From positions 1 through 22,171 of IMG/VR virus record IMGVR_UViG_3300023444_000010: a DNA stretch of 22,171 nt. One strand, written 5' to 3'. This stretch comes from a virus. Of this stretch, positions 10,490 to 15,607 are shown piece after piece (within the stretch, counting starts at the first letter, position 1; every line of letters begins with the position of its first letter). A program made the position numbers and the translations under genes. The notes beneath the pieces are model-generated. The model had not been told where the DNA came from, made no database searches, and saw nothing but the letters and a program-made list of their open reading frames with translations.

Positions 10490-11383
10490 ATGGCCTTATC
10501 CCTGATTTCAACAGAGACGGACATTTGCAACCAGGCTCTTTCCCGCATAGGTCATGAAAAGATTTCTGACGTTGAAAACCCGACAACTAAGGCGGGCAGA
10601 CAGTGTCAGTTGAATTATGCGAATATTCGGGACAACATGTTTTCCGAATACACATGGAATTTTACAATCAAGCGGGACAGATTAACCGCTGCCGGACTGC
10701 TTGATAACTCGTCAAACATTATATCGTTTGTGGTAAATGCGGGCGCTGACACCATAACAGACGACGGCAGCAGATTTCTAACCGGAGAGTTCAGTGACGG
10801 GGACAAAATCTATATTACAGGCTCAGGTTCTAACAACACGACTTATGATATAGATACTGCCGCTGCCGGAACTCTAACACTCGAAACCCATGAATCAGTA
10901 ACTGCTGAAGTGCTTACAAATGATTCTGACTTAAAACTTTATGCTGTTCCGGCCGGTGATGTGTACAGCTACAAATATGCGTTACCGGCAGACGCTATTA
11001 AAATGATTACTGTAAATGATATGGGGCTTACTTCCAAACCGCCTGTATGGGAAGTAGAAGGCGGGTATATAGTTACGAATGAAAAAGACACCAACGACCA
11101 GATAGACATCAAGTATGTGCAGCGCATATCGGATGTGACTAAATTTCCTTCGGCGTTCAACAGAGTGCTTTATCTTAAGCTTGCTGCGCAGATATGTATA
11201 CCCCTAACTAACGACAGGGGACTGTATAAAGATATATTACTTGAGCTTGAAGATGCTTTAGAGAAAGCCAAGTTTATTATGGCTACGGAGGACAATCCTG
11301 AAACGGATGTAGCGGACGACAATTTTAAGTGGCTTAACGGACGGGGCGGCGTCGAGGCTGAAACGCCTGTCATAAGGACGTGA
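10490..11383 (+). CDS. Head-tail adaptor (tail tubular protein A-like), 297 aa
   Basis: Joins portal to the tail nozzle. The N-terminus has the family signature STETDICNQALSRIGHEKIS (residues 5-24), followed by an ENPTTKAGRQCQLNYANIRD segment and the FSEYTWNFTIKRDRL motif, equivalent to 'hpWnFa..r..L'. After about residue 66 a beta-rich insertion of roughly 75 residues interrupts the fold (TITDDGSRFLTGEFSDGDKI, YITGSGSNNTTYDID and TLTLE). The family sequence then returns at YSYKYALPADAIKMI and ends with the helical LYLKLAAQICIPLTNDRGLY. GGGGGT precedes the ATG. Length is somewhat above the family's usual because of the insertion. Confidence 0.86.
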   Translation: MALSLISTETDICNQALSRIGHEKISDVENPTTKAGRQCQLNYANIRDNMFSEYTWNFTIKRDRLTAAGLLDNSSNIISFVVNAGADTITDDGSRFLTGEFSDGDKIYITGSGSNNTTYDIDTAAAGTLTLETHESVTAEVLTNDSDLKLYAVPAGDVYSYKYALPADAIKMITVNDMGLTSKPPVWEVEGGYIVTNEKDTNDQIDIKYVQRISDVTKFPSAFNRVLYLKLAAQICIPLTNDRGLYKDILLELEDALEKAKFIMATEDNPETDVADDNFKWLNGRGGVEAETPVIRT

Positions 11384-11387
11384 ATGA

Positions 11388-14300
11388 ATGGCTAAAGAAT
11401 ATAAACTTATATCGGCTTTTAACGGTGGTGAAGTGTCACCACTGCTGGACGGCAGGGCCGACCTTGAGAAATATTCCACGTTTTTAAAAATCTGCCGGAA
11501 TTTTTTAGTAACTCCGCAGGGGCCTTTAATCAGCAGGCCCGGATTCAAGTACATCAACGAAGTTAAAAATTCCAGCGACCAGGTACGGCTGATACCTTTC
11601 AGGTTTTCCGATCAGGATGCTTATGTGCTGGAGTTCGGCGACCAGTATGTAAGGTTTCACAAGTTTAATGGTACATTGCAGGCCATTGACACGGATCAGG
11701 TTGTGCTGTTTCATTTCAACGATGGCAACGGCTCTGTCACAATGCAGGACGACTCGTCAAACAGTTACGATGTGGACAATGTCACGCATTTTGCTCGTGG
11801 CACAGCGCAGGTGCTTACTGACAACAAAAAATTCGGCTCCGGTTCGTTATATCCGGACGGCGATAGCGATTACCTTGAGTTCGACAACTCAACGGCTTTC
11901 GGTACATCAGTCAACTTTGGCCCTGTCGCAGGCGGTGGCACGGACGAAGACTGGGCGTTTGACTGCTGGATTTATCCCGAAGCAGGAAACGCTGACCCCT
12001 ATACACTGTTTTCGCAGCGTACCGGAGCAAACGATTTTTACAGGCTGCATCTTAACTCTAATATAAGTCTGTTATTGCGAACTGACGAAGTAAACGGCAA
12101 TCAGAATTTCTATGATAAAAGTCCGGTAAACAAAACATTAAACAGTAGTGTCAATGCTCCAAGCACAAGCACTGCAGTAAAAAAATTTGTTGCTTCCGTG
12201 AAGTTCGATAGTTCCAACAATGAAGATTTATACGCTGCCGACCATGCGGATTTCAATTTTTCGTCTGACCATAAGTTTAAAATTACATCATGGATTTATA
12301 TGCCTGACGTTACGATAAGGCGGAATTATATATCATGGGTGTCTAACGGACCTGATCGCATATATTTTCGTGTTGACGTTGGAGGTGACCTGGTTGGCGG
12401 GCTGAAAGAGTCAGCGCAGTCTAATGTTGTTGTAACATATTCAGGCATATCTGCAAATACATGGCATTATGTTGAGTTTTCATGTGACGGCACAACTCTC
12501 TATCTGTTTATAGACGGCGTTTTAAAAGACTCAACAGCAAGGACCCTAAATACTAAAGATTATACAAGCCCTTTTTATATAGGTAGTAGCGGGAGCGATC
12601 TTTATTTCAACGGATATATGGAAGATTTTCGTGTAGCGCATGAAGCAGGGCACACAAGCAATTATTCAGTGCCTGTTGCTCCGGAGAATATGCTTTATCC
12701 TGTATTTGAGATTAAGGACAGTGTAGGTGGTTCTGAGACAATTATAGGTAACTATTCAGTGGATTTTGATTCGTGGCATCATGTGGAGGTAACAGGCGAT
12801 GGCGGGGGTGCGACGGCAAAGACTTATCTGTTTGTAGACGGTGTGCTGCAAAACTCCGGCGGTACGGATATGTCTAATGCTCTGAAAAATTATACAGAAA
12901 ACTACTTCATAGGCGCACATCATAACGGTACAGCTTTAGAGAACTATTTTAAGGGTTATATAGACGAGCTTCAGATTAAAAAGGTCAACACTCACACGGC
13001 GTCATTTACGCCTAATACGTCCGAATACGGCACGATTGGCACATCTCCATATGAAGTAGCGACGCCTTATGCGAAAAACGACATATTTCAGATTAAATTT
13101 GCACAGTCAGCCGATACCGTTTATCTTGCGCATCCTGACTATGCGCCTCGCAAACTCGTAAGAATAAACAACTATACGTGGAAGCTATATACCATAAACT
13201 TTCTTCCTGAACCCTTAACTACAGAGAAGGTTGAACCGTCTGCTACTTTAACTTTAGGGCAGGCAGGCAAGGGTGATTCGGTAGCCTGTACAGCTTCAGC
13301 GAGTGTGTTCGCTGACGGTGATATAGGCAAAGAAATAAGAGAAAAGGCGTCCTCCGGACAGGGCAGGGCTGCAATTGTGGGCTATACAAACGCTACGACG
13401 GTCACAATTGATATATTCGAGGACTTCTCCGGCACGACGATTCAAAACGGCAAATGGGAGCTTGTTGGCTCAAACACAGACGGCACTATCACGATAAGCG
13501 GTAACACTTTAGGTGGCACTGATGTCATGTATGGAGAGGTAGTAACTCTTACGGCATCTAAAAACATCTTTGCCGGAGATGCCACGGACGTGGGGAAATA
13601 CATCACCACTGATGACGGTACGGGGAAGGCTGTATATAAAATTGTCGGTTCGTCTTCTACGACAGCCGTAACCGCCGTAGCTTTAGCGGACACTACTTAT
13701 GATACAAACCTTGTGCTGCAGAAAGGTGAATGGGAGCTTAAAAAATCCGTATGGGACAGCACACTGGGTTATCCTGGAGCGGTCAGCTTTTTTGAAAACC
13801 GCCTGCTGTGGGCGGGTTCTGACACTTACCCTGATACTCTATGGGGCTCCGTTGTGGATGATTACGAAAACCATCTTGCCGGTACTAACGACGATGACGC
13901 TTACTCTTTTACCCTTGCCGGAAGGCAGGTTAATAAAATCCAATGGATAGAGGATGGCGATTCGCTATTTATAGGCACAGCCGGTGCTGAATGGATATTA
14001 GGCAGCCGTGGCTCTTCCGCACCTGTCACGCCTACAAACGTAGATGCCAGACTACAGACTTCTCATGGTTCAGCAAACGTACAGCCTATACAGATAGGGC
14101 AGGAAGTTCTGTTTGTGCAGCGGGATGGCAAACGAATGAGGGAGCTATTATTTTCGTTTGAAACAGACGCATTAAACGCTACAGATTTAAATGTACTGGC
14201 TGAACACATAGCAACGTCGGGGATAAAACAGGTGGACTATCAGCTGCATCCGTATTCAACCGTATGGTGTGTGACAAACGACGGCAAGTTGCTTGGGCTG

Positions 14301-15008
14301 ACTTTTCTTAAAGAACAGAAAGTTATTGCATGGCATGAGCATACAACGGGGCTGAACGGATTATTTGAATCCGTAGCCGTTATACCGAATATACCCGATA
14401 ACACGGACGATGTATGGGTTATCGTCAAGCGCACCGTAAACGGTTCAACAAAGCGTTTTGTAGAAAAAATGGAAACCATGTTTGACGCTTCAGACCTGAC
14501 AAGCGAATCTTTTTTGTTTATGGATGCAGGTATAAAGTATGACGGCGTCTCAACTGCTACCATAACGGGACTTGACCATCTAAACGGAGAAACAGTGTCA
14601 GTAGTTGCGGACGGCTTGCAGCAGGCGGACAAGACCGTCTTCGGCGGCTCCATAACACTTGATTCCGCTGCATCGCATGTAGCTGTTGGTGTTCATACTA
14701 ACGCTGTGGCGCAGTTGATGAAGATAGAAGCAGGTGGCGGGTTAAGCGGAACAGCGCAAATTCGGGCTAAGAAAATAGTGTCGGTTGGGCTGAGGTTTAA
14801 CAAGACTTACAATTTCTCGCTTGGTCCTTCAGAGACTGATACGGACAATTACGAGAACAAGTTTACATCCGGAGAACTGTACTCCGGAGACTTTGAAAAA
14901 GTAGATTACCCCGAAGGCTGGGAAACAGACGGGCATATAACAGTTGTGCAGGATAAGCCGTTTCCCATGACACTTGAGGCTGTAGTTGCGGAGGTGGAAT
15001 TGATATGA
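11388..15008 (+). CDS. Tail nozzle protein with nested LamG-like domains, 1206 aa
   Basis: Forms the distal tail tube below the adaptor. Residues 1-100 carry the family start (SAFNGGEVSPLLDGRADLEK, TPQGPLISRPGFKYI, VRLIPFRFS). About 101-224 is the first half of a LamG/concanavalin-like jelly roll (VVLFHFNDGNGS, FDCWIYPE). About 225-434 is a complete second LamG domain (ISLLLRTDEVNGNQNFYDKS, WHYVEFS, LFIDGVLKDS, YIGSSGS, GYMEDFRV). About 435-547 is the missing second half of the first one (DSWHHVEVTG, LFVDGVLQNS, FIGAHHNG, GYIDELQI). The nozzle sequence resumes with FAQSADTVYLAHPDYAPRKL, carries two copies of a 65-residue beta module ending GKWEL and GEWEL, and continues with YPGAVSFFENRLLWAGS and LWGSVVDDYENH. 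LamG domains usually bind surface glycans. AAGGA precedes the ATG; ATGA overlaps the next gene. Confidence 0.87.
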   Translation: MAKEYKLISAFNGGEVSPLLDGRADLEKYSTFLKICRNFLVTPQGPLISRPGFKYINEVKNSSDQVRLIPFRFSDQDAYVLEFGDQYVRFHKFNGTLQAIDTDQVVLFHFNDGNGSVTMQDDSSNSYDVDNVTHFARGTAQVLTDNKKFGSGSLYPDGDSDYLEFDNSTAFGTSVNFGPVAGGGTDEDWAFDCWIYPEAGNADPYTLFSQRTGANDFYRLHLNSNISLLLRTDEVNGNQNFYDKSPVNKTLNSSVNAPSTSTAVKKFVASVKFDSSNNEDLYAADHADFNFSSDHKFKITSWIYMPDVTIRRNYISWVSNGPDRIYFRVDVGGDLVGGLKESAQSNVVVTYSGISANTWHYVEFSCDGTTLYLFIDGVLKDSTARTLNTKDYTSPFYIGSSGSDLYFNGYMEDFRVAHEAGHTSNYSVPVAPENMLYPVFEIKDSVGGSETIIGNYSVDFDSWHHVEVTGDGGGATAKTYLFVDGVLQNSGGTDMSNALKNYTENYFIGAHHNGTALENYFKGYIDELQIKKVNTHTASFTPNTSEYGTIGTSPYEVATPYAKNDIFQIKFAQSADTVYLAHPDYAPRKLVRINNYTWKLYTINFLPEPLTTEKVEPSATLTLGQAGKGDSVACTASASVFADGDIGKEIREKASSGQGRAAIVGYTNATTVTIDIFEDFSGTTIQNGKWELVGSNTDGTITISGNTLGGTDVMYGEVVTLTASKNIFAGDATDVGKYITTDDGTGKAVYKIVGSSSTTAVTAVALADTTYDTNLVLQKGEWELKKSVWDSTLGYPGAVSFFENRLLWAGSDTYPDTLWGSVVDDYENHLAGTNDDDAYSFTLAGRQVNKIQWIEDGDSLFIGTAGAEWILGSRGSSAPVTPTNVDARLQTSHGSANVQPIQIGQEVLFVQRDGKRMRELLFSFETDALNATDLNVLAEHIATSGIKQVDYQLHPYSTVWCVTNDGKLLGLTFLKEQKVIAWHEHTTGLNGLFESVAVIPNIPDNTDDVWVIVKRTVNGSTKRFVEKMETMFDASDLTSESFLFMDAGIKYDGVSTATITGLDHLNGETVSVVADGLQQADKTVFGGSITLDSAASHVAVGVHTNAVAQLMKIEAGGGLSGTAQIRAKKIVSVGLRFNKTYNFSLGPSETDTDNYENKFTSGELYSGDFEKVDYPEGWETDGHITVVQDKPFPMTLEAVVAEVELI

Positions 15009-15607
15009 TAGCTGCTTCTTTGCCTGCTGGAATAGCTGACGTGTCCACGCAGGTTGCACCGACAGCAAGTTTTTTTACGCCGACTAATGTATTATTTGCC
15101 TCTAACATTGTCAGTCAGTTAAGTGGCATGTACTCTGCTTATCAGAGTGGGAAGATAGCTGAAATAACGGCTAAGATGCGTGCGGACGCTATAAGGTTTA
15201 ACGCCCGTATGAACGCTCGCATAGCTGAACGTAACGCCGAAATCATACAGCAGCGTGCCAAATTTCAGGAAGCCAAAAAGCGCAAGCAGACCTCACGCCT
15301 GTTAGGGCAGATTAAATCCTTATACGGTAAAGCCGGAGTTGCTATGAAAGGCACACCTGAATTGGTGCTTGAGGACGTGGCAATACAGGAAGAGATAGAT
15401 GCGATGGCCATACGTGTGGGCGGGTTTATAGATACTCAGAATGCCCGGCTGGAGGCTTCTAACGAGAGATTAAGAGGCAGGCTGGCTGACATACAGGAAG
15501 CGGTAAGTATAGCGACAGCAAAAACCGGCACGATAACTAATATGCTGAAAAGTGCGGCTGATATCTTAAGCCTTACGGAAGAAGCACAAAGGAAAGGAAT
15601 TATTTGA
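15005..15607 (+). CDS. Ejection (internal virion) protein, gp14-like, 200 aa
   Basis: Helical protein expected to be packed in the virion and released to help DNA cross the cell envelope. The N-terminus has a small hydrophobic region (NVLFASNIVSQLSGMYSAYQ), then a long coiled coil (about 55-100) and the signature LGQIKSLYGKAGVAMKGTPE followed by LEDVAIQEEIDAM, matching the 'r...a..Gv.~~GtP..vl.d.a...e.d' pattern of small podophage ejection proteins. It overlaps the nozzle gene by four bases (ATGA) and has GGAGGTG upstream, so translation is coupled. No enzymatic domain is visible. Confidence 0.78.
   Translation: MIAASLPAGIADVSTQVAPTASFFTPTNVLFASNIVSQLSGMYSAYQSGKIAEITAKMRADAIRFNARMNARIAERNAEIIQQRAKFQEAKKRKQTSRLLGQIKSLYGKAGVAMKGTPELVLEDVAIQEEIDAMAIRVGGFIDTQNARLEASNERLRGRLADIQEAVSIATAKTGTITNMLKSAADILSLTEEAQRKGII

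Follow-up and report, generated by a model that had tools for sequence, protein, structure and literature searches.

The window analysed here, a 22-kb IMG/VR virus record taken at its full length of 22,171 nucleotides, contains a gene for a tail nozzle of 1206 residues, around which lie genes for a terminase, a portal, a major capsid protein, an adaptor and an internal virion protein. Because these genes adjoin the nozzle gene, the region is the structural module of a short-tailed phage. The adaptor gene (10490–11383, phrog_394) is upstream and a phrog_418 gene (15005–15607) is downstream, and the nozzle gene lies between the adaptor gene and the internal virion protein gene, as the T7 gp12-like family leads one to expect. 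Residues 7–1204 of the nozzle correspond to positions 7–708 of the 712 in the phrog_376 (tail protein) profile (E = 4e-197), so that both ends of the family are covered, and the tail nozzle of Carin1 (PDB 8ck1) matches it with an E of 6e-101, residues 106–589 of 8ck1_A being aligned to residues 551–1057 of the window protein. The likeness to the T7 gp12-like nozzles, or tail tubular proteins B (phrog_376; 8ck1 of Carin1; T7 gp12, PMC6702177), lies in the alignment of the core over its whole length, in the adaptor gene upstream and in the internal virion protein gene downstream; the difference is that the window protein has ~450 extra residues in one hairpin. An alignment against six nozzles places them after the hairpin FHKFNGTLQ. 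The gene and its parts, in the reading developed below, are:

11388..15008, plus strand: tail nozzle gene, T7 gp12-like, 1206 aa; phrog_376, PDB 8ck1; follows the adaptor gene
11388..11690, plus strand: nozzle core, N-terminal part, residues 1–101, ending in the hairpin FHKFNGTLQ, which takes inserts in relatives (six-nozzle alignment)
11691..12062, plus strand: probable outer LamG domain, first half, residues 102–225; held-out LamG model 1–103, 55.8 bits; 38% identity to the LamG of the nozzle L147 over 100 columns
12063..12689, plus strand: inner complete LamG domain, residues 226–434, AT-rich; held-out model 1–203, 116.5 bits; Laminin_G_3 59.4 bits; G+C 0.397
12690..13028, plus strand: probable outer LamG domain, second half, residues 435–547; held-out model 115–204, 55.2 bits; Laminin_G_3 45.9 bits over 58–140
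13029..15005, plus strand: remainder of the nozzle core, residues 548–1206; phrog_376, 8ck1_A

Two further features were seen in the tail proteins. The adaptor (10490–11383) aligns through residues 7–276 to positions 2–181 of the phrog_394 profile with ~90 extra residues inside the family alignment, which suggests that tail proteins next to the nozzle are also decorated. In the nozzle core, a small β domain looks tandem-duplicated at 13278–13757 (residues ~631–790; GDSVACTASASVFAD...GKWEL and GEVVTLTASKNIFAG...GEWEL, local score 95), and several of the aligned nozzle relatives have one copy only. A weak Pfam match to Intron_maturas2 (0.0007 to 0.04), below its cut-off, was rejected as chance.

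Three stretches in the nozzle insert region were detected with Pfam Laminin_G_3. Taken alone, the first outer piece had no Laminin_G_3 match, the inner piece matched positions 10–141 of the 151 of the profile in one run, well above the curated cut-off of 27.6 bits, and the second outer piece matched only the latter part of the profile. When the two outer pieces were joined, they scored 61.2 bits over positions 15–140 in a single stretch, better than either half, as the initial annotation had anticipated; this score probes the complementarity of model positions and not the physical pairing of the halves. We also used a phage LamG model of 204 positions, built without the window and without L091, another LamG-bearing nozzle. 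On this held-out model, residues 107–225 align to positions 1–103, residues 229–429 to 1–203 and residues 448–544 to 115–204, and the gap between 103 and 115 is filled by residues 435–447 (MLYPVFEIKD...), which are present but unaligned. The outer halves are complementary: at the cut, the outer domain has neither lost nor duplicated any part. The succession of a first half, a whole domain and a second half is the one that the initial annotation had described; the motifs that it quoted are all present in the translation of 11388–15008, and its boundaries were right to within a residue or two (102–225, 226–434 and 435–547 after refinement). Within the Laminin_G_3 (concanavalin A-like lectin/glucanase) superfamily, PF13385, the inner domain is a standard member and the outer one qualifies when its two halves are taken as one sequence; it differs in being discontinuous, with another LamG of the superfamily lying within it. 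We consider it most probable (about 0.83) that in this nozzle an A1-B-A2 domain insertion lies within another insertion, namely a LamG domain in the core hairpin and a second, distantly related LamG domain in a β-hairpin turn of the first; the outer halves, 102–225 and 435–547, would pack together as one domain.

A set of 268 nozzle-bearing ORFs was gathered from viral contigs, public genomes and public phages. Most of these relatives have at the FHKFNGTLQ hairpin either nothing or an FCCH/Ig-like domain of ~75 residues, indicating that the hairpin is a general insertion site. LamG was found in 14 nozzle ORFs (L320 and L322 nearly duplicate each other, and L095 is incomplete). One complete LamG occupies exactly the site of the window in L087, L095, L147, L274 and L279; L094, L146, L320 and L322 have one LamG there and a second in a later nozzle loop, between VKRT and RYIEYM; and L335 has two LamGs in series at the site. 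In L147 the later loop is empty, with the plain sequence VKRTIDGATQRYIEYM. The comparison with nozzles that lack the inner domain, proposed in the initial annotation, could thus be made with nozzles that have no insert or one complete LamG at the same site (those just named and others). Aligned to the window, the single-domain relatives place both outer ends on the nozzle, and in L087, 35% identical to the window protein, most of the inner domain falls in a gap. Close relatives of the window nozzle were not found in the viral contigs or genomes, nor was any relative close to it found there both with and without the inner domain. In cultured phages, LamG was seen in other proteins, mostly of cyanophages, with no LamG nozzle among the best nozzle matches listed. 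Together, the relatives with none, one, tandem or differently nested LamGs at this site show that nozzles acquire LamG decorations repeatedly.

The serial pair in L335, and the fact that tandem LamG arrays are common in phages, would suit another origin of the three stretches, as the relic of a three-LamG tandem array in which the outer halves remain as fragments and form no common fold. We regard such a relic as unlikely, given that the fragments jointly span the model a single time with hardly a gap or an overlap, that the cut falls in a turn with core motifs kept in both fragments, that two independent deletions at matching positions would be needed, and that, outside the nozzles, no LamG ORF contains fragments of this kind except for a partial match in L209.

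The nested insertion was also seen outside the window. In a survey of 170 LamG domains in 85 non-redundant ORFs, the pattern was present in 3 of the 14 LamG nozzles (the window, L091 and L348) and in none of the 71 other LamG ORFs, which hold single or tandem domains, the short non-nozzle ORF L209 being the sole fragment-like exception. Since none of these 71 ORFs shows it, the complementarity in the window is not due to chance. L091 and L348, whose contigs come from other metagenomes than the window, share one arrangement, where the outer domain is broken after model position 170–174 and resumes at 158–177, in a different loop from that of the window; nesting at this other loop looks independent. 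L091 and the single-LamG nozzle L087 are close relatives (72% identity in the best segment), and the ~200 extra residues are seen directly in their alignment.

The inserted part had been described as more AT-rich, which is indeed the case: G+C is 0.511 in the first outer half, 0.397 in the inner domain and 0.425 in the second outer half, compared with 0.476 in the window, and among 630-base stretches the inner one ranks at the 0.6 percentile. The low G+C fits a separate origin, to which it lends weak support, since the inner domains of L091 and L348 are not distinct in this respect. A differing G+C in the insert, along with the repeat-rich nature of LamG genes, might also point to an assembly artefact in the metagenomic contig. 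This is very improbable, however, because the frame is open over 1206 codons with the nozzle core continuing on both sides, and nested LamG nozzles recur in two other contigs from other metagenomes.

To locate the cuts on a structure, we used an AlphaFold2 model of the single LamG of L147 (pLDDT 95.4), which is a concanavalin A-like jelly roll and also resembles phage LamG proteins. On this model the window is cut in the turn between strands 94–100 and 106–112, the second half resuming at the second of these strands, and L091 and L348 are cut in the loop after strand 169–171 and before strand 183–191; both sites, as modelled, are strand connections that can take an insert with adjacent termini. 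In the PDB, the structures closest in fold to the LamG models were jelly-roll subdomains of clostridial binding domains at ~13–20% identity, which reflect the common fold and not function; no solved structure resembling the LamG region in sequence was found. The AlphaFold2 model of nozzle residues 95–555 reached a pLDDT of 54.6 and a pTM of 0.45, from an alignment that was pairing-neutral, with tandem LamG triples and with outer-half rows taken from different domains; ordinary alignment programs put every single LamG on the inner domain and leave the outer halves short of homologues. When similarity profiles of the half-domains were compared over 54 reference LamGs, the two outer halves were uncorrelated (r = -0.13) and the second outer half correlated with the second inner one (r = 0.73); the pairing of the halves is therefore not established by sequence alone.

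These profiles, with no common closest relative for the outer halves and with the second outer half resembling the second inner one (31% identity), are what might be expected if two complete LamGs were interlaced, the first outer half pairing with the second inner and the first inner with the second outer. Interlacing would, however, require the chain to cross between two sandwiches, whereas the inner halves are joined without a linker via a hairpin, as in ordinary LamGs, and the single-domain relatives leave both outer ends on the nozzle; we rate it a little below even the array relic. Given the poor model of residues 95–555 and the indecisive comparison of half-domains, the nested pairing rests on complementarity, on the linker-free inner domain, on the single-domain relatives and on the parallel cases. 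The central proposal of the initial annotation, that a loop of one LamG received a whole related LamG without loss of the frame, is thus supported by the complementary halves, the single-LamG relatives, the nesting in two other nozzles and a cut that falls in a hairpin turn of the homologue model. This support does not extend to its suggestions that the two jelly rolls would be stacked, would lie on the side of the tail and may bind glycans.

The termini of a LamG domain are adjacent in the fold, so that a turn could accept a whole domain and leave the host sandwich intact. In the nested architecture, a LamG of the concanavalin A-like jelly-roll type would sit in the hairpin of the nozzle core, and the second LamG would sit in a β-hairpin turn of the first and project from it. 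The nozzle, in six copies, might then display 12 jelly rolls, which may bind extracellular or cell-surface glycans and so assist adsorption; we infer this virion position, glycan binding and role in adsorption from the fold and from the usual behaviour of phage decorations. With an identity of only 19% between first halves and 31% between second halves, the inner domain was not copied recently from the outer one. At the two junctions no target-site duplications or repeats longer than 6 bases were found, and the gene region contained no tandem repeats. The arrangement could have come about by the insertion of a foreign LamG or by recombination within an array of tandem LamGs.

In L091 and L348 a strand-1-like motif follows the inner LamG (residues ~485–530 and ~505–540, respectively; KLLIRGD, TKLLLHLDS), and the inner domain's own start lacks that strand, suggesting that the inner domain there may be circularly permuted, with its first strand after its last, as would follow if an out-of-register unit had been drawn from an array of tandem LamGs. 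A broader proposal, which we hold tentatively and at somewhat short of even odds, is that podovirus nozzles are repeatedly enlarged by LamG self-nesting, which arose at least twice, at different outer turns, in the window and in L091/L348 (with a permuted inner domain in the latter), plausibly by out-of-register recombination between tandem LamGs such as those of L335.

Promiscuous Ig-like domains are mobile β-sandwich modules that are fused to or inserted in virion proteins, where they probably aid adsorption. The LamGs described here belong to this known kind, the promiscuous β-sandwich decoration of phage structural proteins; they differ in having the LamG fold and in lying one inside another rather than being appended in series, and the self-nesting is what is new. 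A survey of A1-B-A2 domain insertions in ECOD describes compact inserts with close termini, which favour insertion, and includes nested insertions; 34% of its insertion events fall within one H-group, inserts are usually smaller than their hosts, and the text does not mention concanavalin or jelly rolls (PMC13114784). As in these cases, the host domain in the window is split by a compact domain whose termini lie close together; what differs is that the two belong to one family and are about equal in size. The chief value of the case is for protein evolution. Phages adapt by decorating their virion proteins, and one nozzle site with none, one, two serial or nested LamGs makes the steps directly comparable. 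It also offers a natural example, useful for the study of domain insertion, of a fold that tolerates its own kind inserted at two different turns. Counts of tandem domains from sequence scans can miss discontinuous domains, as here, where Pfam reports three LamG stretches for two domains.

Two minor observations concern the relatives. L087 and L091 agree almost completely at the edges of the outer LamG but share only 2 of 30 residues in its middle, which suggests that domain cores were swapped by recombination. PQ492659.1, Limnohabitans phage DC33, is filed under Inoviridae, yet this 39-kb record contains the gene for a podovirus-type nozzle along with the tail genes around it, and its taxonomy line looks wrong.
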